Source: Candidatus Aenigmatarchaeota archaeon (GTDB lineage Archaea; Aenigmatarchaeota; Aenigmatarchaeia; QMZP01). From it: a stretch of 45,530 nt of DNA. The stretch is taken from assembly GCA_016783545.1 (NCBI GenBank), contig JADHWJ010000001.1, positions 74,369-119,898 of the forward strand. Direction: 5' to 3'. Every line of letters begins with the position of its first letter. Position 1 is the first letter of the stretch. Under the pieces are notes generated by a model. It ran no database searches. It was not told the origin of the DNA and saw nothing but the letters and a program-made list of their open reading frames with translations. Below are positions 13,205-39,761 of the stretch, piece after piece. The position numbers were made by a program, and so were the translations under genes.

Positions 13205-16078
13205 ATGAAAATTTCAATCTCCTATCCACCGATTTCCGATGCAAGAGGAACTCCCTTACTCTCGCAGAATAGGCAATTTCAATATTTTTCAGAACCATGC
13301 TTTATCTACCCAATGGTTCCTTCATCTGCTGCAACACTTCTGAAACAGTCAGGGCACCATGTAATATGGGATGATTCCATAGCTGAAAGAAAGAAAGAAG
13401 ATAATTGGTTTAGAGATATTGAAAACCAAAATCCAGACTTAGTAGCCATAGAAACAAAGACACCGGTCATAAAGCAGCACTGGAGAATAATAAACAAATT
13501 GAAGGAAAAAATTCCGAAAATGAAAATTGTTTTGTTTGGGGATCATGTTACTGCTCTGCCAAAAGAAAGCTTTCTAAATTCCAAAGTGGATTTTGTTCTG
13601 ACGGGTGGTGATTATGATTTTCTGCTTCTTAATTTAGTTAACTATTTAGAAGGCAAAGAAAAGCTAGAACCTGGTATATGGCTTAGAGATGGCACTCAGA
13701 TAAAAAACACTGGAAAATTCGAGCTAAAGCATGACCTTAATGGCCTGCCTTTTATAGATAGGGATTTAACCAAATGGAAACGCTATGCATATGATAATGG
13801 AAATTACAAGAAACTTCCTGGTACATACACAATGGCCGGAAGGGACTGCTGGCACGCGAAATGCACATTCTGTTTGCATCCAGAAACAAAAATTTTGACA
13901 AATTTAGGAATGATGAACATTAAAGATATTGTTGAAGATAATGGAGATATAAAAGTTCTGACTCATAAATGCAGATTCAAGAACATTTCAAAAAGAATGA
14001 AAAGATCATATAATAAAAATATTATTGAAATTTGCAGTTTATATCTTCCTTATGGCATCAAATTAACGCCAAATCATAAACTATTTTCTTTAAAAAGAGA
14101 TAATATGAAAAGATGTTCGCATAGAAGTTGTTGGTCGTATTTTTGCAAACCTTATTTAAAATCAAAATTTCTTCGATGCAAAGATTGTAATCATAAGTAT
14201 TATAAAAATTATCAGTTAAATTTTACAAGGGCCGATGAATTAAGAAAAGGGGACTATTTGGCTGTTCCTATTATAAGAGAGATCAAAGATATTAAAAAAA
14301 TCAGAATAGAAAACTTATTAAATGAAAATCCAATGAAAGTTAAAACAACTAAGGTAATTTCTGAAAAGAAAATTGAAGAAATTTTTGAATTACACGATAT
14401 TGGTGTTTCTCAGAGAGAAATAGCAAGAAAATTGGATTTGAATAGAGAAACAATTAAAAGATATTTGCATTTAAGAACTAAAAAGTCTTTGGATTTTGAA
14501 GAGAAATGTATAAATCTAAAAGATGGGTTAATATGGCAAAGAGGTAATAAAAATAAAATTAAAAATGAAATATTAATTTCTGAAGATTTTCTCAGGCTTG
14601 TTGGATACTATCTTTCGGAAGGGCATGTACATAAATTGAAAAGTCGGCCAAATTCATGGATGGTTGGGTTTACATTCTCCCAAAAGGAAGAGAGATACAT
14701 AAATGACGTAAAGGTGATCTTTAAGAAAATTTTTGGCATAGAACTCAATGAAATCTATAATCAAAAAAATCACACAGTTCAATTATACACAGGATCTTCA
14801 ATTCTAGGCAGATTCTTTAAAACACTGTTTGGTAAGGATTGTTATAAAAAAATAATACCAAACAATTTTATGTATTTGCCACTAAAAAAACAAAGAGAAC
14901 TTCTTTCGGGACTCTTCAGGGGCGATGGGCATTTAAGAATAAGGAATAGATGTGGAATAGAATACATTTTTGGGACAGTATCTGAAAAATTAGCAACTCA
15001 GGTATTTCTTTTGCTTCTAAGGCAAAATGTAATACCAAGTTTTCATGTACTTAAAAGGAGAGGGAAAGCGACGGCACAACAATTCTCTATAAGTCTTTCC
15101 CATTTAGATATTAATAAAGTCTTTCCTGAGATAAAATTGCCATTAAGAAGAAATAATTATAAACACGGTTTCATATTCAAAAATTATGCAATGATACCTG
15201 TTAAGAGCATAAAAGAAGAAAAATATAATGGATATGTTTATAATTTGACAATAGAAGATGATCATAGTTATACCGCGAATTTAGTTAATGCAAAGAACTG
15301 CTCATGGACTACAACATACCCTTCTTACAGATCATCCAGACCAGAAAAACTTCTGGAAGAGATTGAAATGCTTATAGAAAAATATGGAATTAAAGAGATA
15401 ATGGATGATTCTGGTTCGTTTCCAATCGGTAGCTGGCTGAAGAAATTCTGCAACGGTATGATAGAAAATGGATATAATAAGCAATTGAATCTGGATTGCA
15501 ACATGAGATTTGGCGCTCTGAGTTTTGAGGAATATAAGCTGATGAAGAAGGCTGGATTCAGGCTACTCTTGTTTGGACTGGAATCTGCAAACCAGGTGAC
15601 TCTGGACAGAATAAACAAAAAACTAAAAGTAGAGGAAATAGTAAGGTCTTGCAGAAAAGCAAAGAAGGCTGGTTTAGAACCGCATATAACAATAATGTTT
15701 GGCTATCCCTGGGAAACAAAAAAACATGCGCAGAAAACATTGGATTTGGGAAAATATCTTATGAAAAAAGGATATGCAGATACTTTACAGTCAACTGTTG
15801 TTATACCTTATCCAGGAACACCGTTATTCGAAGAGGCAAAGAAAAACAATTGGCTGAAAACAATGGACTGGAACAGGTATGATATGGATATGCCAATATT
15901 GAAAACGCCAATGTCTGATTCAGAAATAAATGAGATGGTGCAAGGCCTTTACAGGGTTGCATTTAATCCAGAGTTTGTTCTGAGAAAAATTCTAGGAACA
16001 AGAAGTCCAGACGATATCAAATTCTTCTTAAGGGCTGGAAAAAAGGTCCTCGGGCATGTGAATGATTTTTCACATTAA
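13205..16078 (+). CDS. B12-binding-type radical SAM enzyme interrupted by an intein
   Basis: 957-residue precursor. Removing the intein (residues 223-698) leaves a 481-residue enzyme. N-terminal residues 1 to about 170 resemble a cobalamin-binding domain (ATLLKQSGHHVIWDD, VLFGDHVTALP) without the DxHxxG cobalt-ligand motif. The radical SAM motif is spaced C-x4-C-x2-C after splicing: C215 and C220 in GRDCWHAKCTF, then C699 in CSWTTTYP. I recall this GRDCW-x3-CTFCSWT form from B12-type radical SAM proteins of uncertain function. The C-terminal half has FGLESANQ, HITIMFGYPWET and IPYPGTPLFEEA, normal for this family. It probably modifies (for example C-methylates) a glycan or lipid, which is inferred from the flanking glycosyltransferases. 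A flippase gene follows after 25 bases. Confidence 0.85.
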   Translation: MKISISYPPISDARGTPLLSQNRQFQYFSEPCFIYPMVPSSAATLLKQSGHHVIWDDSIAERKKEDNWFRDIENQNPDLVAIETKTPVIKQHWRIINKLKEKIPKMKIVLFGDHVTALPKESFLNSKVDFVLTGGDYDFLLLNLVNYLEGKEKLEPGIWLRDGTQIKNTGKFELKHDLNGLPFIDRDLTKWKRYAYDNGNYKKLPGTYTMAGRDCWHAKCTFCLHPETKILTNLGMMNIKDIVEDNGDIKVLTHKCRFKNISKRMKRSYNKNIIEICSLYLPYGIKLTPNHKLFSLKRDNMKRCSHRSCWSYFCKPYLKSKFLRCKDCNHKYYKNYQLNFTRADELRKGDYLAVPIIREIKDIKKIRIENLLNENPMKVKTTKVISEKKIEEIFELHDIGVSQREIARKLDLNRETIKRYLHLRTKKSLDFEEKCINLKDGLIWQRGNKNKIKNEILISEDFLRLVGYYLSEGHVHKLKSRPNSWMVGFTFSQKEERYINDVKVIFKKIFGIELNEIYNQKNHTVQLYTGSSILGRFFKTLFGKDCYKKIIPNNFMYLPLKKQRELLSGLFRGDGHLRIRNRCGIEYIFGTVSEKLATQVFLLLLRQNVIPSFHVLKRRGKATAQQFSISLSHLDINKVFPEIKLPLRRNNYKHGFIFKNYAMIPVKSIKEEKYNGYVYNLTIEDDHSYTANLVNAKNCSWTTTYPSYRSSRPEKLLEEIEMLIEKYGIKEIMDDSGSFPIGSWLKKFCNGMIENGYNKQLNLDCNMRFGALSFEEYKLMKKAGFRLLLFGLESANQVTLDRINKKLKVEEIVRSCRKAKKAGLEPHITIMFGYPWETKKHAQKTLDLGKYLMKKGYADTLQSTVVIPYPGTPLFEEAKKNNWLKTMDWNRYDMDMPILKTPMSDSEINEMVQGLYRVAFNPEFVLRKILGTRSPDDIKFFLRAGKKVLGHVNDFSH
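13871..15298 (+). mobile_element. Intein with LAGLIDADG endonuclease in the radical SAM cluster motif
   Basis: 476-residue in-frame intein (precursor residues 223-698). Block A is C223 LHPETKILTN. Block B is LTPNHKLFSL (TxxH). The two endonuclease motifs are LVGYYLSEG at 465-473 and LLSGLFRGDG at 566-575. Block F is VYNLTIEDDHSYTANLV. The C-terminal residues are A-K-N, followed by Cys699 as the +1 nucleophile. The penultimate residue is Lys instead of the usual His. Insertions include a Cys cluster (C304, C309, C314, C325, C328) and a helix-turn-helix (about 397-421). The segment is visibly more AT-rich than the extein, which suggests recent arrival. The C220 of the extein is exactly at position -3. 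Confidence 0.92.
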
Positions 16079-20269: not shown

Positions 20270-21172
20270 ATGTTACCATTAGTATCTATAGTTATATCAA
20301 CATACAACAAAAAAGAAAAGCTTGCTAGGTGTTTGGAATCCTTGAAAAAATTAACCTATCCCAGATATGAGATAATAGTAATTGATAATGGATGTGATGA
20401 CAATACCTCAGAGATGGTTGGGAAGAAATTCCCACACGCAAGGCTTAATAGAATCGAAAAGAACAGCGGTCCTGCTGTTGGGAGAAATGTTGGAATAAGA
20501 CTGTCTAAAGGGGAGTTTGTATTTATTTTGGACGATGATAACGTTGTGGATAAGGCTATTCTGACAAATCTTGTTGATGGAATCCAGAGCGACAGGAGAA
20601 TAGGCATAGTTGGGCCTAAAATGTATTACCTTGGAAATCCTAACAAAATATGGGTAGCAGGGGGCGACATAAATCCAATGAATAGTAGGACAAGTTACTT
20701 AGGTAATGTAATGGATAATGGGCAGTTCGAAGAAAAAAGAGAGGTGGGGCATTTCCCAAACGCATTCTTGGTTAGAAAATCTATTGCCGAAGAGGTAGGT
20801 GGTTTTGACGAGAGTTATTTTTTCATATATGAGGAATCGGATTTCTCTGAGCAGGTAAGAAGAGCTGGTTATAAAATAGTTCTGATACCTTCTGCAAAGA
20901 CCTGGCATGATATAGATCCACCTGAGAACATAGAAACAATAAGGAAATATAGTCTTCATACTTCTGAAAGAGCATATTATATGTCAAGGAACAGAGCGCT
21001 GTATATGAAAAAGAATTCGAGTCTTGTTCAATACCTGATTTTTCTAATGGGTTTCTTTCCACTGATAAACCTGCAATACATCTTAATAATATTGCTGCAT
21101 GGAAATCTGGATTCATTGAAGAACTACGCAAAGGGCATTGTTGATGGGCTGTGTGGTAGAGGTAGAATATGA
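20270..21172 (+). CDS. GT2 glycosyltransferase, rhamnosyltransferase-like
   Basis: 300-residue inverting GT-A enzyme: LVSIVISTYNKKEKLARCL, IVIDNGCDDNT, a DDDN metal motif in FVFILDDDNVVD, GGFDESYFFIYEESDF (acceptor or catalytic Glu/Asp region) and a C-terminal hydrophobic stretch (about residues 255-275) that anchors it to the membrane. It is spaced 24 bases after the dehydratase. Its last four bases (ATGA) start the following radical SAM gene, so the two are translationally coupled. Confidence 0.88.
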   Translation: MLPLVSIVISTYNKKEKLARCLESLKKLTYPRYEIIVIDNGCDDNTSEMVGKKFPHARLNRIEKNSGPAVGRNVGIRLSKGEFVFILDDDNVVDKAILTNLVDGIQSDRRIGIVGPKMYYLGNPNKIWVAGGDINPMNSRTSYLGNVMDNGQFEEKREVGHFPNAFLVRKSIAEEVGGFDESYFFIYEESDFSEQVRRAGYKIVLIPSAKTWHDIDPPENIETIRKYSLHTSERAYYMSRNRALYMKKNSSLVQYLIFLMGFFPLINLQYILIILLHGNLDSLKNYAKGIVDGLCGRGRI

Positions 21173-22611
21173 AAATACTTTTTATTATACCAAAAATAAG
21201 GTCCATGCTTGGAGATGAGAAAGGTATTCCAGGTCACCCAAACGTGGGTATTGCATACCTGTCTGCTTTTCTGAAACAGCATGGAATCGAAGTCAGTGTT
21301 TATGATGAGGGTCTGGAGCAAAAAAGAGAAAAGATCTTTGATATTATACAATCATTCAATCCTGATATAATAGGAGTGAACTCTTTCAATTATTGCTATC
21401 ATTATGCATATGAGTTGATATCTGAGCTGAAAAAAAGAACAGACATACCAGTTGTTTTTGGCGGACCGCATTTATCTGCAATGGGTAAGAATGTGATAGA
21501 AGAGACAGAGGCTGATTTTGGAATAAATGGAGAGGCTGAATTTACATTAATAGAGCTTTTAAAAAACCTGAAAAACAGGGATTTTTCAAAAATAGATGGG
21601 CTCATATGGAAAGAGAATGGAGTTGTGGTTGAAAACCCAAACAGGGAGCTTATAAAAAACCTGGATTCCCTACCATTCCCTGATTATAGTGAATTTGACA
21701 TTGAAAGATATTCATATACGCATGAGAAAAAGATGCCTATAATAACAAGCAGGGGCTGCCCATACAAGTGCAATTTCTGTTCGGTCAGGCTTTCAATGGG
21801 GGATGGTTTTAGGGCAAGGTCTGCTGAAAATGTTGTTGACGAAATCGAACATTGGTGCAAAAAAGGATATATGGTATTTGAGATAAACGATGACTGCTTT
21901 AGCTTTGATTTGGAAAGGGCAATGAAAATATGTGATTTGATAATTGAAAGAGGCCTTAAAATAAAATACAGCCTTTACAATGGCATACGGGTTGACAGGA
22001 TAACAAAAGAGCTTCTGGAGAAAATGAAACAGTCTGGCTGTGTATTTTTGTCATATGGATGCGAAGCAGGGGATGATGAGATTCTAAGAAACATAAGAAA
22101 GGGCATAAAACTCGAGCAGGTAATGAAAGCAAGCCAGTGGGCTAAGGAAGTCGGAATAAAGCACTCTGTCAATTTCATAATAGGTCATCCAGGGGAAACA
22201 CATGAAAAGGCAATGAAGTCAATAAAATTTGCAAAGTCTTTGCCATGCGATTTTGTTAATTTTTATAATCTTGTCCCTTATCCAGGGACAGACCTCTTTA
22301 AATGGATAAAGGAAAATGGAAGATTCCTTAAGCCGCCAGAGGTCTATCTGAGAGAGCTCTCTTACAGGGACACATCACCTGTATTTGAGACAGATGATTT
22401 CACAAAAGAAGAGAGGGAAGATGTTATTAAGAAAGGGCTTGAACTTTATGAGAAAACCGCGCTTCAATACAGGTTCGGAAATAAAAGAGGAAACATTGTT
22501 TTTAATATCTCAAAAATAGAACCATTAAAAAACTTTGGGATTAATTTCGCTTTGAGTAATAAAATAGGGAGAAGGGTGTTTCACAAGTTTACATCCAAAT
22601 CCAGGGAATAG
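21169..22611 (+). CDS. B12-binding-domain radical SAM enzyme
   Basis: 480 residues. N-terminal cobalamin-binding-like domain (about 1-150: GIAYLSAFLKQHGIEVSVYD, PVVFGGPHLSAM), then radical SAM motif C197-x3-C201-x2-C204 in SRGCPYKCNFC, FEINDDCFSF, SYGCEAGDDEIL, NFIIGHPGETHEKA and YPGTDLF. The order matches class B radical SAM methylases and related B12-type enzymes. Acceptor unknown. Its position between two glycosyltransferases, coupled by ATGA to the upstream one, points to a sugar or lipid carrier as substrate (inference). Confidence 0.88.
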   Translation: MKILFIIPKIRSMLGDEKGIPGHPNVGIAYLSAFLKQHGIEVSVYDEGLEQKREKIFDIIQSFNPDIIGVNSFNYCYHYAYELISELKKRTDIPVVFGGPHLSAMGKNVIEETEADFGINGEAEFTLIELLKNLKNRDFSKIDGLIWKENGVVVENPNRELIKNLDSLPFPDYSEFDIERYSYTHEKKMPIITSRGCPYKCNFCSVRLSMGDGFRARSAENVVDEIEHWCKKGYMVFEINDDCFSFDLERAMKICDLIIERGLKIKYSLYNGIRVDRITKELLEKMKQSGCVFLSYGCEAGDDEILRNIRKGIKLEQVMKASQWAKEVGIKHSVNFIIGHPGETHEKAMKSIKFAKSLPCDFVNFYNLVPYPGTDLFKWIKENGRFLKPPEVYLRELSYRDTSPVFETDDFTKEEREDVIKKGLELYEKTALQYRFGNKRGNIVFNISKIEPLKNFGINFALSNKIGRRVFHKFTSKSRE

Positions 22612-24386: not shown

Positions 24387-25172
24387 ATGAAGAGAGAAGA
24401 CAATCAAAATGTATGGGACAATCTTTGGGAAGGGAAAAACGTCAGTTTTTTGCAGGAGCTAAAAGGCAAGCGAAATTATTCTAAAAATCAATACATGAAG
24501 GAATTCTTAGAAAAAATAAAGTTAGATCCCCATTATAAATTTATAGAAAAAGAATTAACAGTGTCCAAGAATGCTATTTTTCTGGAAGCCGGCTGCGGCA
24601 CAGGCCACTGGGTTTTTTATGCAAAAGAAAAAGGCAACAGAGCATTCGGTATTGACATTTCAACTGAAGCTCTGAAAATAGCAAAAACCCATGAGAAAAG
24701 TGATTCACAGTTCATTTGTGGCGATGTTAAAAAACTTCCAATCGCTCAAGGTTCATTTGATATTATAGTAAGTCTTGGTGTAATTGAGCATATTGACAGG
24801 CCGGATAAAATAATAAATGAATTTTACCGCGTCTTGAAAAAAGGCGGAAAGTGTTTTATAACAGTACCAAATGCTCTTTCAACTCATCCAATAACATCTT
24901 TATTATCCAAAATGATTGGGAAATGGGATCTTGGCCGCGAAGATATTTATTCACAAAGAAGGCTAAAAACTTTAATGGGTTCTGCTGGGTTTGAAGATGT
25001 AAAAACTGGGATTGTTCCAACTGGTCATATGCTTGGAAGCTTTCCGCTATATATACCATTAATTGGAAGGAAAATATTTAATTTTTTATACAGAATCAGC
25101 TATATGATTGAATGCAAACAATCAAAATTAGGGTTTTTTTGTTTTGCTATTGGGGAAAAAATGAAGCATTGA
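24387..25172 (+). CDS. Class I SAM-dependent methyltransferase
   Basis: 261 residues with a 60-residue N-terminal extension, then motif I FLEAGCGTGHWVFYA at about 69-83, GIDISTEAL, GDVKKLPI, and VIEHIDRPD with VLKKGGK, the Methyltransf_11/UbiE-like pattern. The last quarter is hydrophobic (IPLIGRKIFNFLYRISYMIE), so it may sit at the membrane on a lipid-linked glycan. Its 3' end overlaps the 3' end of the convergent 755-residue membrane protein by 45 bases, which is unusual for this compact but otherwise little-overlapping window. Confidence 0.85.
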   Translation: MKREDNQNVWDNLWEGKNVSFLQELKGKRNYSKNQYMKEFLEKIKLDPHYKFIEKELTVSKNAIFLEAGCGTGHWVFYAKEKGNRAFGIDISTEALKIAKTHEKSDSQFICGDVKKLPIAQGSFDIIVSLGVIEHIDRPDKIINEFYRVLKKGGKCFITVPNALSTHPITSLLSKMIGKWDLGREDIYSQRRLKTLMGSAGFEDVKTGIVPTGHMLGSFPLYIPLIGRKIFNFLYRISYMIECKQSKLGFFCFAIGEKMKH

Positions 25173-27395
25173 GTAAAAAATAAATATTATTATTGCAATT
25201 ATGTTTAGTGTCAGACCAAGTAGAAGTATGGACTGTGGCCAGAAATATATTGTCATTTCATAATTACCGAGCTTGTCAATATACCAGACGTTTGCATATC
25301 CGTTTCCAATAAAGTGCATATCCCTTGGCTTCTGGAAAAGCATCAATAACCATTGAGCTATTCTATCATCATACAGCCCCCATTTATTGTCGTAGGTCTC
25401 TGAAAAAACAAGGAAATAGGGTCCTGTCGCATTTTTCACAACCACTCTGTATTTTGTTGGATTGATTTTTTCTGTGAATATTTTTGGTGTTGAATTTCCA
25501 AGAGGAAGCTCTGATATAACTCTTTCTTCATGTCTTTCCAGTTGATTCTTCATAAAGAAAATCTTTTTATCAATTGTTTCATTTTCCAAATCAAGGAACA
25601 GTTCATCAATATTCTCCATAATAGAGAAATCATTGGTAATATATATATGCTCAAGATAATCCTGATTTTCATAAAGATCTATATAGACATATTCCTCCAA
25701 TGGTTTCCATGCACCAACTGTTTTTAGACTGTCCTCAACTTTTATCAGATTCCATTTGTCTCTGCAATACCCAAAGTTGGGAACAACATCTTTTCTCAGG
25801 ATAATATACTTCACATTGAGAATGGCAAGTATTTTGTTGATTTTGGTATAATTCCCCAAATCGCAGATATTCTTTTCCAAAAGTCTTAGAAATTTCCCAC
25901 TATTTGATGATATTACAATGTCTGCAAAAAGCGGAGGTTTGGGCGAAGCAAAAATAAACGGGTCGCTTCCCTGACCGTCCAACTGATATTCATTCTTTAG
26001 GAAATACGGCGAGCCTGACATTGGGAGAAACAAAACCCTTGAATCAGTTTTATCCGCTTCAATTGTTTCTGCAACTTTATTATATCCAGGCGAGAGCCTG
26101 TAATTATCTAAATGACTTCCTCCTCCACCAGATTCCAGCTTGGATATGCTAAAATCTCCGGCAAAAAATGGATGAAGCCAGAAAATAATAATAATGAAAA
26201 TAATTACATAGAATATATAAAAATTCTTGAATTCTATTTTCCTAAGCCTTTTCATCCATACTGAAAGGGATATGCCCATTGAAACAGCGAGGCAAAAACT
26301 TAGAAAATTAATTATATGTTGCGGAGACCTGAAAAAATTCATTAGGCTGATATTCTGATACATCCAAACAACAAGCGCTCCGAATGGCTCTTTCCCGCCG
26401 GTTGCGAATATGGCTGAAATTAAAAAAAGTCCTCCCCAGAATATAATTTCTTTATCTCTTTTAAGCAAAAATGTCAGAAATATCATGAATGGTATTACAA
26501 GAGAAACAAGAAGCCATGGTGCATATATCTGACTGTCAATGGAAAGCTTGAAGAAATCTTTGAAATATCCTATTCCAATAAGCGCTTCATAAATCGAAGG
26601 GACATTGACCTGGATGCTATTTAAGTTAGCTGTTCCCATTTCGCCAATGAAAGAACTTCCGACGTTCAGATATGAAAATATTGTTGGCAAAATCCAATAG
26701 ATATTAAAAAAGAAAACCACAGCATAGACTGAAACAATTTCTTTGATACCTGAAAAGCCCTTTTCTTTCAGACTATATAATAAAATGAGAAGCATGCTGA
26801 ACGCCAATCCGTGGAGAGACATTGCCATCATTGCCATGGAAGACGCTGTCAAGAATAAATAAACGTTTCTGTGTTTCCCGGCTAGGAATCTTATGTGAAA
26901 AAAAAGTGTTAATGGTAGAATCGAATATGAGATGAACTGAGTGTTCGCGCCTCCTATGAATTCATTGAACAACAAAGGGGAAAACGCATAGAAAAAACCT
27001 GCAATAAAGGAAGGAAAAAGATATTTACCGTATCGTTTTTTCAGAATTTCCCTTGTAAGAAAAAACATTGACATGCCAGCAGTCAGCATCACAACAAACA
27101 GCATAAGTTTTGAAACAAAGTCGCCTGTGAGACCAATATATCCAAAACCACCGATAATGGTAAATGCCAAGAAATTTGAGCGCATATAAACAGGAAACCC
27201 GAGAGCAGGACTGTCCCACATGTAAAAGGAATTCTCAGTTAGGTGTATAAGATAACTCTCTCTTACAGGTATTAACCAATCCCAATTATGTCCAAGTGTT
27301 CCAGGTCCGAGAACGCCCCTCAGGGATATCAGGGCAAATGCTATGTAAATGAATAAAACAATTAAAAATATGATAGTTTCTGATTGCTTTTTCAT
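25128..27395 (-). CDS. Large polytopic GT-C-like membrane glycosyltransferase
   Basis: 755 residues with about 12-13 membrane helices in the first 430 residues, an extracytoplasmic domain (about 435-715), and a last helix near 725-745 followed by a basic tail. The first outer loop contains GHNWDWLIP, with acidic and tryptophan residues where GT-C enzymes have their catalytic aspartate. The overall plan resembles YfhO/DUF2079-type or arabinofuranosyltransferase-like GT-C proteins that use polyprenyl-phosphate sugars. It is not AglB, because no WWDYG block was seen. A TTTTAATA element about 25 bases before ATG 27395 suggests a leaderless start. It is downstream of the GT39 gene in the same direction. 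Confidence 0.75.
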   Translation of the reverse strand: MKKQSETIIFLIVLFIYIAFALISLRGVLGPGTLGHNWDWLIPVRESYLIHLTENSFYMWDSPALGFPVYMRSNFLAFTIIGGFGYIGLTGDFVSKLMLFVVMLTAGMSMFFLTREILKKRYGKYLFPSFIAGFFYAFSPLLFNEFIGGANTQFISYSILPLTLFFHIRFLAGKHRNVYLFLTASSMAMMAMSLHGLAFSMLLILLYSLKEKGFSGIKEIVSVYAVVFFFNIYWILPTIFSYLNVGSSFIGEMGTANLNSIQVNVPSIYEALIGIGYFKDFFKLSIDSQIYAPWLLVSLVIPFMIFLTFLLKRDKEIIFWGGLFLISAIFATGGKEPFGALVVWMYQNISLMNFFRSPQHIINFLSFCLAVSMGISLSVWMKRLRKIEFKNFYIFYVIIFIIIIFWLHPFFAGDFSISKLESGGGGSHLDNYRLSPGYNKVAETIEADKTDSRVLFLPMSGSPYFLKNEYQLDGQGSDPFIFASPKPPLFADIVISSNSGKFLRLLEKNICDLGNYTKINKILAILNVKYIILRKDVVPNFGYCRDKWNLIKVEDSLKTVGAWKPLEEYVYIDLYENQDYLEHIYITNDFSIMENIDELFLDLENETIDKKIFFMKNQLERHEERVISELPLGNSTPKIFTEKINPTKYRVVVKNATGPYFLVFSETYDNKWGLYDDRIAQWLLMLFQKPRDMHFIGNGYANVWYIDKLGNYEMTIYFWPQSILLLGLTLNIIAIIIFIFYSMLHFFPNSKTKKP

Positions 27396-27449: not shown

Positions 27450-27728
27450 TTATTTCATTATAAACTGCAGTTTTCCTAATCTAGAATCTGTGAATCTATC
27501 TGAATTTACAAAGAGCTCGAATTTGATATAGACCATGGAGTTCTGGTCTAAATGTTCTGTTATATCAATACTATCTTCAAACTTGCCTGAGTTAATTGTT
27601 TTCAAAAGTTCATACCTTTCCCCATCTTTGCTTACATATATCTTGAAGTAATTTTCCTTTGAACCACCAACACCGATAACAGGTTTCATTTCAACTGTTT
27701 CATATCCTAAACTGGAGCTTATAGACAA
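27450..27728 (-). CDS. Detached C-terminal beta-domain of the upstream GT39 protein (frameshifted tail)
   Basis: A 92-codon frame beginning at a TTG, overlapping the end of the 1024-residue GT39 gene by 29 bases in another frame. It has no convincing start codon or ribosome site of its own. Its sequence (SLGYETVEMKPVIGVG, YFKIYVSKDGERYELLK, DSIDITEHLDQ) reads like the second half of a sugar-binding beta-sandwich whose first half (GEMVAEFTYPDTESLE) ends the GT39 protein. A one-base shift near 27,708 would join them as VYKL-SLGYETVE. So this is more likely a gene tail displaced by a frameshift than an independent gene. Confidence 0.55.
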   Translation of the reverse strand: MSISSSLGYETVEMKPVIGVGGSKENYFKIYVSKDGERYELLKTINSGKFEDSIDITEHLDQNSMVYIKFELFVNSDRFTDSRLGKLQFIMK

Positions 27729-30700
27729 TCTTTCCTATGGTATTTACAAGCGCCGGTGCTAAAAGATTATACGAAGCATCACGTCTTATATTCTCTAATT
27801 CATGTATTGTTTCAAGACTTTCTGTGTCAGGGTATGTGAATTCAGCTACCATCTCACCGTTTATATCTTTAGATGCTGAGGATATTGCATCGGTTGGTGA
27901 TATGTAAAAATAATAGAGATTCTGCTCGCCTTCAGTATTTTTGAATGTGATTGTATGTTTCCCTTTGCTGAGACTTTGACTGGCAACATAAATAGGATTG
28001 GTCATTCCTTTAATAGGTCTCACTGGTTTTGAGAATTCCCCACCATCTATACCAAAGCTGAGCTTCCCTCTTCCATCACCGGTCTTTGCAAAAACAAAGA
28101 CACTATATTTACCATCTTCCGTTATATTAAATTCGTAGTTTATTTTCGCATCAGATCTTGCATATATGTTCTTTATGTTAACACCATGATAATTCTTTAT
28201 CCTTTCATCCAAAACCCAGTTAGAATTACCTGTGAAACTCTCCATATCGGAATGGAAGATCACGTTTTCCCTTAGCTTTAATTTGTATAAATTGACAGGC
28301 AGAGCCCTTCTCTTAAACGTCCTCTCTTCAACAAGTTTTATTGTGTCCCAGAATGCCTTGTTCTTTTCTATTCTTATGCTGTCACCGGGTTCTGTGACAA
28401 GCCATCCGAAACTATCATTGCTGCCAAGCATGCCCATGGGTTTGTAGTATGTGTCAGGGTTCCATATAATCTTAGCGTCTTTGTAGGAACCATAACCTCC
28501 GAATGTTCCGTTTAGGAAGTAAAGTAATTGTGATGTGGTTTTAGAATTGGCTGCAAACACTACATCACCAGGCCTCAGGTTATCTTTCAGATATTCTGTA
28601 ACACCCTCCCAGTCATTCATTTCATTATATGAATTATACCATTTCCATTCATACCATTGGCCTAGCGGAGCTGCTGTTATGGAAATGAAAACAGCTGCTG
28701 TAATCAAAACAGCAGTCAAAAGTTGCTTGTTTTCCAACTTAGTGCTTATCTTTTTCCTCTTAGGTAGCTTAATCATAATGTTTGTGAGAAGAATAGCTCC
28801 ATTGGCTATCACTATAAGATAAGAGAAGAGAATCAAGAAAAGATGTCTTTGACTGAAAAGCTGGATCTTTATGAAGAATATTAAAATCAGTGGCAAGAAT
28901 ATCCATGTAACAAGCAAAATGAATTTCTCTTTGTCATGTTCGTATATTCTAAATAATCCCAATACGAAGAACAGTATGAATACAAGCAATGCAATACCAG
29001 TGCCTGCACCAAGCCATCCAAACATGTCTGTAAAGAAATATGGTGTGAATTCAACTGAGCGTGTCTTTGCAATGCCGATGCTCTTTATCTGCTCTCCACC
29101 AATTCCTGATTGAGATATCCCATATATTGGAGAAAGTATCAGCAGGATACCAACCACAATAAGTATATTTCTTTTGATGTGCTTAGTTTCTAAATTCTTC
29201 AACCATTTCCCTGAATTGAATCTGAACTTTTTATTTCCCAGTAAAACACCTCTTTCCCTGTAAAGAGTTAGGAAAACAAGATATGCAATATGAACAATGA
29301 GCACGATAATGGCGCTGTAATGCGTAAACAGTGCAAATGTCATTACAACCGCATAACCAAAGAACCATTTCCCCTTTTCTTTTTCATTCTTCATTCTCCA
29401 GAAAAGATAGAATGAGAGAACTATTAGAAATGTCAGGATTGAATAATATCTCATCTTTTGTGCATAATGTATATGCGCTATTGATATGGAAAGCAAAAGC
29501 GCGGCAATAACGCCTATGTTCTTGCCGAATAATCCCTTGCCAAGCTTATACATGACAAAGATTCCAAGCAGGCCGAATATCAGGGATATGAATCTCAGGC
29601 TGAATGGATCCTGCATGCCGCTGTAAAATGCAATGTGGAATATAATATAATGAACCTGGTTTGGGTACCATTTTGTCCATATGGTTGGAATATCGTCTGT
29701 GATTCTGCCGTTGGTTACTATTTCATCTTCGTCAAATGCATCAACACCCAGATCATAAAACCTTAATCCAAATCCAAGAATAATTATAAGCAAAAGAAGA
29801 ACTGCTGCATAATTTCTTCCTTTCTTCAGATTCTTTATACCATTTCTTATGAACTTAAGCACATCTTTCCTGAAAAGGAGAAGAAGGATGAGCAATGCTA
29901 TGAAAATATATGTGTATTTGGCATTACTGTCAATTGCATACATGTCTCCTAAATATACATCAATTGGTTTGTCAATCCTGTCAACATGAAAGCCAATGGA
30001 ATTGATGTTAGATAGGTCTATGCCAGAATCTAAAACCGCTGGAGATCCAAGGTCCAGATTTTGCACTGTCCATGAATTAGTGGTTTTAATATAATTCCAG
30101 ATAACTGATTTTCCACCACCATCAGATATTATGAATCTTGGATTTCCTATGGCACCTTCTGCCTTCAGAGAAAAGACAAGCCTCTTTAATCCACTCCAGT
30201 CAGTAGTATGGGGCCTGCAGTTTATACCGCTATAGCTTGCTTCATTGCCTATGACCAATCCATGTGTCTGTCCGAATTCAACTTTTCCATTCGAGGGACT
30301 GCAGTCAGCTCCAATGCCAAATAATAGCACTGGTTTTGTGCTAAGGCCTTCTGACTGAATAACAATCAAAAGTACAACAACCAATATAACAATTTTTATG
30401 AACTTTCTGGTTTTCATGAAAGCTGGTATTTTCATTGCAGGTTTTTTCCTGCCCTTCACCTTTCTCTTCTTTCCCCTTGGTTTAATCAGGTTCAGATGTA
30501 CTACAACATGGCCTATTATACCAATGAGAAGAAGGTAGTACGCAATGGATGCAATCTGTTCAGAAAGAGAGGATGCGTTTATGTTCATTCCAAGAAGCGA
30601 ATCTTTGAAAAGGAAAATTGTCGGGCTGAAAACTAGGAACAATAGGCCAAGTACTATGTATGTGTTTGGATTATATAAAAAGAATTTTTGGGGTGCATTT

Positions 30701-30774
30701 CTACGAGATTTATTTTCCCTTTTCTTTCTAGAAACCCTCTTTCTTCTACTTTTAGAAGATTTTTTCTTTGTCAT
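27700..30774 (-). CDS. GT39-type membrane glycosyltransferase with basic tail and outer sugar-binding domains
   Basis: 1024 residues. Residues 1-30 hold 16 Lys/Arg (cytoplasmic tail). Three membrane helices follow (about 38-55, 78-95, 125-140). Residues about 150-285 form an outer domain with carbohydrate-binding character (DWSGLKRLVFSLKAEG, SWTVQNLDLGSP). From about 290 to 700 comes the polytopic PMT/ArnT-like core, with the catalytic acidic motif VDAFDEDEI (D345-E351) after LRFYDLG and HIHYAQKMRYYS. Residues about 730-1020 form a second outer region with CBM6/35-like DGKYSVFVFAKTGDGRG and GKHTITFKNT. It transfers a sugar from a lipid phosphate to an outer acceptor. It probably continues into the frame at 27450-27728 (see that entry). 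Confidence 0.82.
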   Translation of the reverse strand: MTKKKSSKSRRKRVSRKKRENKSRRNAPQKFFLYNPNTYIVLGLLFLVFSPTIFLFKDSLLGMNINASSLSEQIASIAYYLLLIGIIGHVVVHLNLIKPRGKKRKVKGRKKPAMKIPAFMKTRKFIKIVILVVVLLIVIQSEGLSTKPVLLFGIGADCSPSNGKVEFGQTHGLVIGNEASYSGINCRPHTTDWSGLKRLVFSLKAEGAIGNPRFIISDGGGKSVIWNYIKTTNSWTVQNLDLGSPAVLDSGIDLSNINSIGFHVDRIDKPIDVYLGDMYAIDSNAKYTYIFIALLILLLLFRKDVLKFIRNGIKNLKKGRNYAAVLLLLIIILGFGLRFYDLGVDAFDEDEIVTNGRITDDIPTIWTKWYPNQVHYIIFHIAFYSGMQDPFSLRFISLIFGLLGIFVMYKLGKGLFGKNIGVIAALLLSISIAHIHYAQKMRYYSILTFLIVLSFYLFWRMKNEKEKGKWFFGYAVVMTFALFTHYSAIIVLIVHIAYLVFLTLYRERGVLLGNKKFRFNSGKWLKNLETKHIKRNILIVVGILLILSPIYGISQSGIGGEQIKSIGIAKTRSVEFTPYFFTDMFGWLGAGTGIALLVFILFFVLGLFRIYEHDKEKFILLVTWIFLPLILIFFIKIQLFSQRHLFLILFSYLIVIANGAILLTNIMIKLPKRKKISTKLENKQLLTAVLITAAVFISITAAPLGQWYEWKWYNSYNEMNDWEGVTEYLKDNLRPGDVVFAANSKTTSQLLYFLNGTFGGYGSYKDAKIIWNPDTYYKPMGMLGSNDSFGWLVTEPGDSIRIEKNKAFWDTIKLVEERTFKRRALPVNLYKLKLRENVIFHSDMESFTGNSNWVLDERIKNYHGVNIKNIYARSDAKINYEFNITEDGKYSVFVFAKTGDGRGKLSFGIDGGEFSKPVRPIKGMTNPIYVASQSLSKGKHTITFKNTEGEQNLYYFYISPTDAISSASKDINGEMVAEFTYPDTESLETIHELENIRRDASYNLLAPALVNTIGKIVYKLQFRI

Positions 30775-34854: not shown

Positions 34855-35694
34855 TTATTCTCCCATTAACCTTATCCCTTGCCTGAACGAAATTGGCGAA
34901 TATCCAATATCCTTTGCAGCCATGTTTATGTCAGCTGTCTTATCATTTGTTATATTCTGAATTTGTTCCAGCGGCAGTTTTGTATTTCTGAACATTGTTT
35001 TGTATATTTTGGTAATAAAATTTATTAATGTAAATGGTATGTGTATCCTTAGAAACCTTATTTTAAACTCTTCGGAGATTATATCCAACATCTTATTATA
35101 TGACAGTGCATGTGGGCCAGCAATGTTATATGTCTTGTTTTTTACATCCTTTTCCAGAACCTTTATGATTGCATTGACAACATCTTTTATGTAAACAGGC
35201 TGATTTTTATATCTGCCGTTTCCTATCACAGGCATTACCCTTGCTCGGATTATCCTGGTTATGAAGAAGTCATTTTTTCCATAAATCAGCGAAGGTCTGA
35301 GAATAACCCAATTATTGAGTTTTGCTTTCACAGCTTCCTCTCCTTTTCTTTTTGTATATCCGTACGCGCTGTTTTCGATTCCAGCATATATACTACTTAT
35401 GAAAATGAATTTCGTATTTTTGTCTACTGAATTGACAAGATTTTTAGTTCCCTTAATATTTACATCGATAAGCTCTTCTTTAGAACCAAGAATAAGTGCT
35501 CCAAGATGTATTACAGTATCCACACCCTTAACAGCATCCTCGATAGATTTCTTATCCCTTAAATCACCATAAACCACCTCAGTATTGATGTCTTTTTTCT
35601 TTCTCAAAAGGCAGCGAACTCTCTTCTTTCTTTTTACCAGTTCTTTGACTAATTCAGATCCAACAAACCCAGAAGCACCTGTTATTAGAATCAT
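34855..35694 (-). CDS. NAD(P)-dependent SDR / epimerase
   Basis: 279-residue extended or atypical SDR: TGASGFVGS at 5-13, ISSIYAG at 99-105, Y111-x3-K115 in AYGYTKRKGEE, ILRPSLIYG and NIAGPHALSY. It is shorter than GalE-type epimerases and similar to the NDUFA9-like/atypical SDRs that act on sugars or lipids; the specific reaction is open. The start shares one base with the upstream radical SAM stop (TAATG). The stop is one base before the phosphodiesterase ATG. Confidence 0.82.
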   Translation of the reverse strand: MILITGASGFVGSELVKELVKRKKRVRCLLRKKKDINTEVVYGDLRDKKSIEDAVKGVDTVIHLGALILGSKEELIDVNIKGTKNLVNSVDKNTKFIFISSIYAGIENSAYGYTKRKGEEAVKAKLNNWVILRPSLIYGKNDFFITRIIRARVMPVIGNGRYKNQPVYIKDVVNAIIKVLEKDVKNKTYNIAGPHALSYNKMLDIISEEFKIRFLRIHIPFTLINFITKIYKTMFRNTKLPLEQIQNITNDKTADINMAAKDIGYSPISFRQGIRLMGE

Positions 35695-36989
35695 TACCTA
35701 AGTTTTGAAGATAAAAATTTAAATAAGTAAGAAGGCCTGAAATAATAGCTTACGAATGCCTTTTCCTTTAATTTCAGGAGCTGTTCGCATGAGAGATTTT
35801 TGTGCTTGAAAACAGGTGTAAAGGAATTGAACTGTTCCCAGTCGTCTGTGAAAACATCTTTTTTCATTTTTTCATAAAATTCTGTTCCTGGAAAAGGAGT
35901 TGAAATAAAAAATTGCGCAACAGTTGTGTTTAGTTTTTTTGCATATTCTATTGTCTTGTTGATAGAGTCTTCTGTATCATTTGGCAGGCCTAAAATGTAG
36001 AATGCAGCAACCCTTATCCCCTTTTTATTACAATATTCTATCATCTCTTCCTGATGCTTTATCGTGGATGTTATTCTTGTTGCATTCTTCAGTATCTTTG
36101 GATTGGATGATTCTATCCCAACATTTATAGAACGCATACCAGCATCGTAAAGAACATCTATGAGATCCTTGTCCAGAAAATTAAAATGTGTTTCACATCC
36201 CCATTGAACATCCAGTTTCTTTTCTATCATTGACAGAGCTATGTCCCTTGACCTATTCTTGTTGAATGTAAAGAGCGGATCCCTGAACTGGATGCCTTTT
36301 ATCCCAAAATTTCCAACAAGATGCTCTATCTCTTTTATTATGTTTTCAATACTTCTTTGTCTGTAGTTTCCGTAATGGGCCTTGTATGGACAGTAGTTGC
36401 AAACATAAGGGCAGCCCCTGCTGGAAAGCACTGGTAGGAATGGCTTCCTTTTTACGAGAGGCTTATAACTATATTCGCTTATTGGAAATATCTCCCATTT
36501 CGGATATGGGAGCGAATCCAGATCTTTGATTTTTTCAGATTCTATAATCCCCTCTGGAATTTTCTCATTTATCTTCATTGCGGCTTGCTCTGGCTCCCCT
36601 TTAATTATAAAATCAGAATGCTTTCTGTAAATCTCTGGTTTTACAGATGCAAAGGGACCTACAAATCCAACCTTAGAGCCGTTTGCTCTGATAGAATCAG
36701 CGGTTTCTATCTCATTCCTGTAATCCACTATTGATGAATGGATTATTACAATGTCTGAATCAGGGGTAGTGTTTGTTGTAAAGTCAACTTCATGTCCGTT
36801 CTGGCTGAATATGGCTGCCATATAAGCCAAAGATAATAGAGGTAGGTTTGTGCCTGCTTTTTTCTTTTTTTCAATTAATTTAGCCAGAAAAGAATCTCCT
36901 ATCTTTGTAACTTCACCATACCCGCCCATTACATCTTTGTTTATGTATTCTCTCCTGTCCGATAAAAGATTCAGAATAGTTATTCTCAT
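35694..36989 (-). CDS. B12-binding-domain radical SAM enzyme
   Basis: 431 residues. A short cobalamin-binding-like N-terminal domain (LLSLAYMAAIFSQNGHEVDF, KVGFVGPFA) and radical SAM motif C193-x3-C197-x2-C200 in SRGCPYVCNYC, RDPLFTFNK, NVGIESSNPKIL, AFYILGLPNDT and STPFPGTEFY. First gene of the operon radical SAM - SDR - phosphodiesterase - GT2, divergent from the carbamoyltransferase. This gene context suggests modification of a lipid-linked sugar or its lipid. The N-terminal domain is reduced relative to the other B12-type members in the window. Confidence 0.86.
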   Translation of the reverse strand: MRITILNLLSDRREYINKDVMGGYGEVTKIGDSFLAKLIEKKKKAGTNLPLLSLAYMAAIFSQNGHEVDFTTNTTPDSDIVIIHSSIVDYRNEIETADSIRANGSKVGFVGPFASVKPEIYRKHSDFIIKGEPEQAAMKINEKIPEGIIESEKIKDLDSLPYPKWEIFPISEYSYKPLVKRKPFLPVLSSRGCPYVCNYCPYKAHYGNYRQRSIENIIKEIEHLVGNFGIKGIQFRDPLFTFNKNRSRDIALSMIEKKLDVQWGCETHFNFLDKDLIDVLYDAGMRSINVGIESSNPKILKNATRITSTIKHQEEMIEYCNKKGIRVAAFYILGLPNDTEDSINKTIEYAKKLNTTVAQFFISTPFPGTEFYEKMKKDVFTDDWEQFNSFTPVFKHKNLSCEQLLKLKEKAFVSYYFRPSYLFKFLSSKLR

Positions 36990-37046: not shown

Positions 37047-39761
37047 ATGATTATTCTTGGTATTGCTATACAGCATGATTCAGGGGCAGCAATAGTCAAA
37101 GATGGTAAGATAATTGTTGCTGTTAATGAAGAGAGATTGTGCAGAAATAAGCTTTTTTGGGGATTGCCAAAGCTATCAATAAAAGAAGTTATCAGGATAG
37201 CTGGAATAGATGTATTAGATATTGACTATGTGGCTGTTTCAAATATAGCCCATGGAAGGCCTGTGACTGTTACAGGAGGAAAAAAAGAGTTTGGTGGAAT
37301 GAGGAATATGCTGTCAGTTCTATCCAAATCACCAATTGGAAAACTAATTACAGGAACAAACGTTGGAATATCTTTCTACAGATTTTTGTTTAAGAGGATG
37401 ATGCCTCAGAGAAGAAAAGAGCTTATGGATTATGTAAATTCTCTAGGAGTAGCTGCTCCTTTTGAGTTCATAGATCACCATGATGCTCATAATGCTTCTG
37501 CGTACTTTACCTCTGGCTGGGATAGTGCTCTTGCAATATCATTGGATGCCATGGGTGATGGCTATTGTTCAAAAATAAGTGTTTGTAAAAATGGGAAAAT
37601 GAAAACAATACATAAAATACCGTTTTTCCATTCACCTGGGTACTATTATTCGTATGTCACAGAACTGATGGGATACAAGGCAGACAAGCACGAAGGAAAG
37701 GTAACAGGCCTGGCTGCTCACGGAGATCCTGAGAAAACACTGGATATTTTTAGAAAGAGAGTAAGCTATAGTAAATCCAAGTTTAGTTTTGTAAACCATG
37801 GGAAATGGGGAATGCTTGAAAAAGACCTGTTGGGACAAAAACTAAAGAATCATTCAAGAGAGGATATTGCTGCTGGAATACAAAAACATTTTGAGGACAT
37901 GATTACTGAATATGTCAAAGATGCTATTAAAAAAACAGGAATGAATAAATTGGTTCTGTCTGGCGGGGTTTTTGCAAATGTAAAAGTTAATCAGGCTGTT
38001 AGAGAGGGGTGTGGCATAAAGGATATTTTCATACATCCTCACATGGGCGACGGTGGTGTTGGTGCCGGCGCAGCGCTTTTCCTTTGGGCAAAACTTCTCA
38101 GTAAGCAGGTTCCAAAAACAAAAAGATTGGATAATGTGTATTTTGGGCCGGAATTTACTGATGAAGAGATTGAAAAAGAGCTGAAAAAGAATAAGGTCAG
38201 TTATAAAAAATACAATAATGTTGAAAAGGAAATAGCAAAGCTTCTGGCAGATGGCAAGGTTGTTGCAAGGTTTAATGGAAGAATGGAATATGGCCCAAGA
38301 GCACTGGGAAATAGAAGCATTTTGTATCAGCCAACAGACCCTTCTGTAAATGATTGGCTGAATAAAAAATTGCATAGATGCTATGACAAAGAAACAGAAA
38401 TTTTAACTAAAAGTGGGTGGAAATTTATGAAAGACATCTCTCCTGATGAAGTGGTCGCAACCTTAAACAAAGAAAACAATTGCTTGGAGTATCAAAAAAT
38501 ACAAAGCAAAACATCATATAAATTCAAAGGTAATATGCATTCTATTAAAAATAACAGAATTAATTTATTGGTTACACCAGGACATAATTTCTGGGTCAAA
38601 AGAAAGCATAGTAATTATTTTGAGTTTAAAAAGATAGAAGAACTCCATGGTATAAAAACATACCACTATCAGAAAGTTGGTGGTGTTCATTGGAAATCAG
38701 GAAAATCAAATAAATGTTTCATTCTTTCCAGGGTTAAACATGGAAATAAAATAAAAAAAACAGATGAAATAAGAATTCCAATCAAGCTCTGGTTAGAATT
38801 TTTAGGTTATTATCTTTCCGAAGGCTGGGTTTACAATGATGGCCATGGCCATTATAAGGTCTGTGTAGCCCAGCTTAAGAATTCTAAAAATTACGAACCT
38901 ATTAAAAATTGTGTAAAAAAAATACCTTTTAATTCATTTTATGATAAAAACACTTTTACATTTTATAACAAACAACTATATACTTATCTTAAAAGATTTG
39001 GTAAAGCTAAAAATAAGTTTATACCACTTGAATTTCTAGAGATGCCAAAATGTAAATTAAGAATATTATTTGATGCTTTAATTAGGGGTGATGGAAATAT
39101 TCGCGGTTCTGGTTACAGGTATGCAACAATAAGCAAACAGTTGGCTGATGATATGCAAATATTAGCAACCAAACTAGGATTCAGTGCAAGGATATCTGTT
39201 CAAAAACCCAAGAAAAAAGAACACAATGATTTGTATATGGTCAGAATAGGGAGAAGTTCTGTATCTACTGTAAGGAGCTACCAAATCACTAAAGAAACAT
39301 ATAACGGGCCTGTTTATTGTGTTACAGTTCCAAATCATATAATACTTGTGAGAAGAGGTGGTAAATCAGTTTTTTGTGGAAATACAGAGTTCATGCCTTT
39401 CGCTCCAGTGATACTGGAAGAGAGAGCAAAAGACTATTTTAAAAAGTATCCAGACTCCTCTTATGCTGCTGAATTCATGACAATCACATATGATGTTACA
39501 GATCGATGCAAAAAGGAAGCTCCTGCTGTTGTTCATGTTGATGGAACAGCAAGGCCGCAGACAACAAGTGAAAAGATCAACCCATCTTATTATAAAATAG
39601 TGAAAGAGTATGACAAAATAACAGGAACCCCTATCGTAATAAATACTAGTTTTAACATGCATGAGGAGCCGATTGTATGCACTCCTTATGATGCTATAAG
39701 AGCATTCAAGCTCGGGCATTTGGATGTTCTGGCAATTGGAAATTTCATAGCTAAAAACTAA
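37047..39761 (+). CDS. NodU/TobZ-type O-carbamoyltransferase interrupted by an intein
   Basis: 904-residue precursor. Without the intein (residues 445-779) it is 569 residues, normal for the family. It carbamoylates hydroxyls of sugars or related molecules via carbamoyl-adenylate. N-terminal Kae1-like domain: ILGIAIQHDSGAA, FIDHHDAHNASAYF with metal ligands H144/H145/H148, LSLDAMGDG-like SLDAMGDGY, HEGKVTGLAAHG, and LSGGVFANVKVN. C-terminal domain: EYGPRALGNRS at 414-424, then after the splice site TEFMPFAP and TGTPIVINTSFN. GGTGG precedes ATG 37047. Its stop overlaps the convergent radical SAM stop by four bases. Glycan carbamoylation is the likely role given the locus. Confidence 0.92.
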   Translation: MIILGIAIQHDSGAAIVKDGKIIVAVNEERLCRNKLFWGLPKLSIKEVIRIAGIDVLDIDYVAVSNIAHGRPVTVTGGKKEFGGMRNMLSVLSKSPIGKLITGTNVGISFYRFLFKRMMPQRRKELMDYVNSLGVAAPFEFIDHHDAHNASAYFTSGWDSALAISLDAMGDGYCSKISVCKNGKMKTIHKIPFFHSPGYYYSYVTELMGYKADKHEGKVTGLAAHGDPEKTLDIFRKRVSYSKSKFSFVNHGKWGMLEKDLLGQKLKNHSREDIAAGIQKHFEDMITEYVKDAIKKTGMNKLVLSGGVFANVKVNQAVREGCGIKDIFIHPHMGDGGVGAGAALFLWAKLLSKQVPKTKRLDNVYFGPEFTDEEIEKELKKNKVSYKKYNNVEKEIAKLLADGKVVARFNGRMEYGPRALGNRSILYQPTDPSVNDWLNKKLHRCYDKETEILTKSGWKFMKDISPDEVVATLNKENNCLEYQKIQSKTSYKFKGNMHSIKNNRINLLVTPGHNFWVKRKHSNYFEFKKIEELHGIKTYHYQKVGGVHWKSGKSNKCFILSRVKHGNKIKKTDEIRIPIKLWLEFLGYYLSEGWVYNDGHGHYKVCVAQLKNSKNYEPIKNCVKKIPFNSFYDKNTFTFYNKQLYTYLKRFGKAKNKFIPLEFLEMPKCKLRILFDALIRGDGNIRGSGYRYATISKQLADDMQILATKLGFSARISVQKPKKKEHNDLYMVRIGRSSVSTVRSYQITKETYNGPVYCVTVPNHIILVRRGGKSVFCGNTEFMPFAPVILEERAKDYFKKYPDSSYAAEFMTITYDVTDRCKKEAPAVVHVDGTARPQTTSEKINPSYYKIVKEYDKITGTPIVINTSFNMHEEPIVCTPYDAIRAFKLGHLDVLAIGNFIAKN
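38379..39383 (+). mobile_element. Intein with LAGLIDADG endonuclease in the carbamoyltransferase
   Basis: 335-residue in-frame intein (precursor residues 445-779). Block A is C445 YDKETEILTKSGW. Block B is LLVTPGHNFWV (TxxH). Endonuclease motifs are FLGYYLSEG at 585-593 and FDALIRGDG at about 675-683. Block F is YCVTVPNHIILV. The last residues are V-F-C-G-N and the +1 residue is Thr780. The penultimate residue is Gly rather than His. It splits the extein between NKKLHR and TEFMPFAP. It is more AT-rich than the host gene. Its YYLSEG and RGDG blocks are close to those of the radical SAM intein, but the rest differs and the +1 nucleophile is Thr rather than Cys. Confidence 0.92.

Follow-up and report, generated by a model that had tools for sequence, protein, structure and literature searches.

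The window analysed here is a 45,530-nucleotide stretch of DNA from a Candidatus Aenigmatarchaeota archaeon, in which a single open reading frame encodes a radical-SAM protein whose [4Fe-4S] cluster motif is interrupted by an intein. The features of this gene, given in window coordinates, are as follows.

13205 to 16078, plus strand: open reading frame of 957 residues, a B12-binding radical-SAM protein split by a LAGLIDADG intein
13205 to 13870, plus strand: N-extein (residues 1-222), a B12-binding-like domain and the start of the radical-SAM domain, ending in GRDCWHAKCTF
13847 to 13870, plus strand: first half of the [4Fe-4S] motif, with C215 (nt 13847) and C220 (nt 13862), the latter at position -3
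13871 to 15298, plus strand: intein of 476 aa (C223-N698), matching PF14890, PF14528, TIGR01445 and TIGR01443, and missing in the orthologues L009 and L011
13871 to 13900, plus strand: block A with Cys1 (CLHPETKILT); the TIGR01445 match begins at residue 223
14060 to 14086, plus strand: block B (KLTPNHKLF, residues 286-294) with the catalytic TxxH (TPNH)
14114 to 14194, plus strand: Cys-rich insert, C-x4-C-x4-C-x10-C-x2-C-N-H, located after block B and ahead of the next splicing block
14402 to 14467, plus strand: helix-turn-helix within the intein (PF02796, 24.6 bits, above the cut-off), likely the DNA-recognition region of the homing endonuclease
14591 to 14629, plus strand: LAGLIDADG motif 1 (LVGYYLSEGHV), acidic residue retained
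14900 to 14935, plus strand: LAGLIDADG motif 2 (LLSGLFRGDGHL), acidic residue retained
15224 to 15298, plus strand: blocks F and G (YVYNLTIEDDHSYTANLVNAKN; TIGR01443), with Asn at F:4, Lys697 as the penultimate and Asn698 as the terminal residue
15299 to 16078, plus strand: C-extein (residues 699-957) and stop codon, with C699 (nt 15299) as the +1 residue and the remainder of the radical-SAM domain

The C-extein matched the Pfam Radical_SAM model (PF04055) over residues 704-848 (6.3e-15, 56.2 bits against a cut-off of 29.5), and the Pfam B12-binding match in the N-extein (residues 42-132, 4.6e-5) was weak and below the cut-off. The curated models nearest to the exteins were HpnJ and BchE, with scores far under both cut-offs; at 149.2 bits to HpnJ (TIGR03471) against an equivalog cut-off of 577.6, the protein is not an HpnJ member. 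Since the gene is set among polysaccharide-type genes, including glycosyltransferases, a flippase-like polysaccharide protein, a nucleotidyltransferase and a sugar epimerase/dehydratase, the host enzyme likely functions in surface glycan or lipid modification. The same polysaccharide region holds three more B12-binding radical-SAM proteins, all intein-free (21169-22611, 35694-36989 and 39758-41272). The window also contains two large open reading frames of 755 and 1024 aa (25128-27395 and 27700-30774 (minus strand)) for which NCBIfam gave no match.

The intein was recognised by Pfam Intein_splicing (2.1e-13), LAGLIDADG_3 (PF14528; 8.6e-12, 45.6 bits against a cut-off of 22.5), NCBIfam intein_Nterm (TIGR01445, residues 223-294; 28.9 bits against 24.5) and intein_Cterm (TIGR01443, residues 677-699; 18.8 bits against 15.6), and its G+C content is 28% versus 37-38% in the exteins. 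It has the features of a class 1 intein, with C223 as Cys1, the block B TxxH, which is kept in every radical-SAM intein aligned, and N698 followed by C699; the penultimate His, which is usual and not obligatory, has no match, Lys697 standing in its place. A LAGLIDADG homing endonuclease domain with both acidic motifs is also present. Judging from what is known of the family, this intein would be active in splicing and homing. The best solved relative of the radical-SAM intein profile was PI-PkoII (PDB 2cw7, 1.6e-40), which has the LAGLIDADG intein architecture in common with the window intein and differs from it in host protein and insertion site. The genome to which the window belongs (0.89 Mb, 70% complete) is intein-rich, with 28 intein-domain matches (L001-L008; contigs C7, C15 and C16), several of them in one 1702-aa frame resembling MCM helicase.

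The first-pass annotation had placed the junctions at CTF/C223 and N698/C699, and both proved exact in residues and coordinates, so that the intein is flanked by MAGRDCWHAKCTF and CSWTTTYP. The cluster motif thus reads GRDC(215)WHAKC(220)TF followed by a cysteine that is residue 223 in the precursor and residue 699 once spliced. Intein-free orthologues, the check suggested in that annotation, were found in related genomes: L009 and L011, with 55% and 54% identity to the spliced sequence, align with it from end to end and ungapped at the junction (GRDCPYHKCTFCAWPVLFP and GRDCPWHKCKFCAWPTLFP), where they read GRDCPYHKCTF/CAWPVLFP. Both the residues and this alignment agree with the earlier placement of C220 at position -3 and of Cys1 at the position of the third cluster cysteine, which C699 takes after splicing. 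The intein is hence present in one of the three orthologues. Moreover, the motif spacing is CX4CX2C, one residue more than the canonical CX3CX2C found in most paralogues within the order; because both intein-free orthologues have it as well, this spacing is a property of the enzyme family and no artefact of the intein. The first-pass annotation had mentioned neither this spacing nor the penultimate Lys, the Cys-rich insert or the recurrence of the site described below.

These features fit a mobile class 1 intein with a LAGLIDADG homing endonuclease that would have inserted at the third [4Fe-4S] cysteine of a B12-binding radical-SAM enzyme, a site probably used because it lies in an invariant, indispensable stretch. 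In the precursor, Cys1 occupies the position of the third ligand; Cys1, the TxxH, Asn698 and Cys699 would then carry out splicing, and C699 would become the real third ligand. Because C699 would supply this ligand, the activity of the enzyme would be strictly splicing-dependent. Under oxidation, a C220-C223 disulfide could stop the first splicing step in the way reported for Pyrococcus abyssi, and such trapping is plausible.

The arrangement seen in the window is not unique; it recurs, and the window intein adds a new case to it. Inteins at the third cluster cysteine, 16 complete and one truncated, were found in four radical-SAM families of several archaeal lineages, and all 16 complete ones have Cys1, Cys+1 and a Cys at -3. 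In Aenigmatarchaeota genomes they occur in the B12-binding radical-SAM proteins L029/L035 (GCPYRCAF/C...VSN/CNIP) and L038 (GCPYSCTY/C...VNN/CNVP), in L050, another protein of this type with the truncated intein, and in L045, an activating-enzyme-like protein (GCNFRCPF/C...VSN/CHNKD). Other archaeal lineages have them in the activating-enzyme-like L230-L232, the AmrS-like L070 and L071, and the tetraether lipid synthases (Tes) L102-L106. Two further Tes proteins carrying them are L107 (genome G107) and L108 (G000:C12:69008-71944), the latter in the window's own genome, G000, which thus holds a second radical-SAM intein at this site. Among the 12 Tes genes of family f36, the P. abyssi family, 3 have the intein and 9 do not. 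The inteins of L029/L035, L038, L045, L070, L071 and L230-L232 share the site of the window intein and, as both profile and tree indicate, its intein family, but their identity to the window intein is 27-34% and their hosts differ. Likewise, the NCBIfam model of intein-containing Tes (NF045703) has its insertion point at the same position of the motif, whereas its match to the window intein (residues 333-700) reached 57.7 bits, far under the curated cut-off of 1700, and its host family is another one.

A scan of the genome contigs with a profile of two inteins yielded L035, on the contig of L029, as the sole locus. A degenerate DNA pattern combining CX3CX2C with block A was rejected after its three matches in 156 genomes all proved false; this pattern is blind to the window intein because the spacing there is CX4. 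Viral contigs contained related inteins, none of them in a radical-SAM motif, and a Cys at -3 was present in 2 of 54 viral inteins, the register being approximate. Inteins also split another Fe-S-type CxxC motif in the 2-oxoacid:ferredoxin oxidoreductase beta-like proteins L053 and L054 (SWCPA/C...HN/CGDF). These inteins, too, have Cys at -3, but their penultimate residue is the usual His; the C-terminal junction HN/CGD is common to these two and to L046 and L048.

A maximum-likelihood tree of 28 inteins, which covered archaeal sequences other than L230-L232 and had long branches, placed the radical-SAM inteins of the third-Cys site in two groups, one of Tes inteins and one of the rest including the window intein. 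A single clade of all of them was rejected (AU test, p = 0.00074), with moderate support for the non-Tes group (84/94). The tree therefore suggests at least two lineages, a careful wording chosen because the branches are long and the sampling archaeal only.

Callahan et al. are said to have described the P. abyssi 'MoaA' intein in 2011. In that intein, according to reviews, Cys1 forms a disulfide with the N-extein Cys at -3, and oxidation blocks splicing (PMC10663303 section 3.2; PMC3922620). We examined the corresponding genes in G201. This genome is that of P. abyssi GE5, since 3400 bases compared of its 3444-base second contig are 100% identical to the plasmid record NC_001773.1. The genuine archaeal MoaA of this genome (L133; TIGR02668, 414.5 bits) is a 329-aa open reading frame with no room for an intein, and the only intein-bearing frame among its ten TIGR02668 matches is a Tes of 1052 aa (L102; G201:C1:657857-660976), which scored 2148.9 bits to the intein-containing Tes model and also matched 7TOL, a solved tetraether synthase (9.8e-131). 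The stretch NRCNLNCWY/C...VSN/CFFY of this frame lines up with the CX3CX2C cluster motif in 7TOL; this alignment and PMC9433317 confirm the motif, with the insertion at its third Cys. The 1052-aa frame is the one intein-bearing radical-SAM frame found in P. abyssi, and its site is the same as that in the window. Since the genuine MoaA is intein-free and the sole intein-bearing TIGR02668 match is Tes, the host of the published 'MoaA' intein is, by gene content, most likely Tes. Hence, the likeness to P. abyssi drawn in the first-pass annotation held for the third-Cys site with a Cys at -3. The two inteins further share Cys1, Cys+1, an endonuclease and a penultimate residue other than His. In contrast, the P. 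abyssi intein has the canonical CX3CX2C, a penultimate Ser, no Cys-rich insert and Tes as its host, where the window intein has CX4CX2C, Lys, the insert and a B12-binding radical-SAM host, and the AU test places the two in different intein lineages.

The residue preceding the terminal Asn of inteins is normally His. Only 1 of the 16 complete radical-SAM inteins at the third Cys has it; the rest of the 16 have mostly Ser, Lys in the window, and also Asn or Cys. By comparison, His was present in all of the 15 other archaeal inteins examined and in 33 of 41 viral inteins used as a control. Because these inteins fall into about two lineages, the loss amounts to two independent contrasts and no significant association (sign test, p = 0.5), and the claim of significance across lineages was dropped. 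A coupling of the -3 Cys with loss of this His at all Fe-S sites was likewise dropped, as L053 has both the -3 Cys and HN. One possible effect of the loss is a slower final step of splicing; another is the removal of a metal ligand beside three cysteines. The Cys-rich insert is a putative metal-binding knuckle. It is absent from all four other radical-SAM inteins aligned with the window intein, and similar Cys-rich stretches occur in a PHP-protein intein (L052), at the same place, and in a dCMP-deaminase-like intein (L080); the idea that it is a feature of radical-SAM sites was therefore rejected.

Taken together, we consider it probable that the locus carries a mobile intein at a strictly splicing-dependent site, and that any disulfide trap would be a by-product of the chemistry of this site rather than an evolved switch. 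This explanation draws on the exact junction, the recognition of both termini and of the endonuclease, the low G+C content, the recurrence of the site, the two lineages and the patchy presence; Lys697 in place of His and Asn at F:4 count against it and make the speed of splicing uncertain. The intein is dispensable, because it is missing in both orthologues and in 9 of the 12 f36 Tes genes, and it is most likely a selfish element, probably still mobile, at an indispensable motif.

The first-pass annotation had suggested that redox state or Fe-S occupancy may gate splicing. An adaptive redox switch, in which the C220-C223 disulfide would prevent the precursor from splicing as long as conditions are oxidising and an oxygen-labile enzyme would be freed only in reducing ones, is unlikely in our view. 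Radical-SAM enzymes are indeed oxygen-labile, the cysteine geometry is that of the oxidation-blocked P. abyssi intein, and the pair of Cys-3 and Cys1 is invariant among the complete third-Cys inteins. However, a Cys at -3 alone is no evidence for evolved regulation, because the CX(3/4)CX2C motif forces a Cys there with or without regulated splicing, and most orthologues are intein-free. Nor do the data point to a benefit of the intein to the host, because C220 is needed as a cluster ligand and the orthologues and most f36 Tes genes do without the intein. Moreover, AlphaFold2 modelling of the whole precursor from five sequences (mean pLDDT 53.9, below 50 at residues 215-271) yielded no Cys-Cys geometry. 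If redox control were real and selected, the by-product explanation would be wrong.

Gating by a metal or an Fe-S cluster seems improbable. Here C215, C220 and C223, already present in the precursor with Cys1 as a surrogate third ligand, would bind a cluster or a Zn/Fe ion that sequesters Cys1 and blocks splicing until the metal is absent. Divalent cations do inhibit inteins (PMC4031507), and escape from metal poisoning could explain why 15 of the 16 inteins have lost the penultimate His, but the L053 intein, which lies in another Fe-S motif and has a -3 Cys, retains this His. Very improbable is a degenerate intein whose penultimate Lys and Asn at F:4, two assisting residues unlike the commonest ones, abolish splicing and leave the gene effectively broken, since the frame stays open and conserved through the intein and the two extein halves (957 aa), inteins lacking the penultimate His have reportedly been documented to splice (Chen, Benner and Perler, 2000, listed in PMC4031507), and other radical-SAM inteins, that of P. 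abyssi included, have Ser at this position.

A broader and doubtful proposition is that the third Cys is a convergent intein site coupling splicing, cluster assembly and oxygen sensitivity, where independent lineages would repeatedly have lost the penultimate His, tuning the last splicing steps or avoiding metal poisoning, and where radical-SAM enzymes would be set free only when the cell is both reducing and iron-replete. With Tes as the P. abyssi host, the regulated role would be membrane lipid synthesis and not molybdopterin synthesis. The redox-responsive intein, until now a single textbook natural case, becomes part of a testable set that comprises at least 16 inteins from two lineages, spread over four enzyme families, and whether the arrangement is an adaptive switch or a by-product of the site can now be tested across independent cases that share both the site and the Cys at -3.
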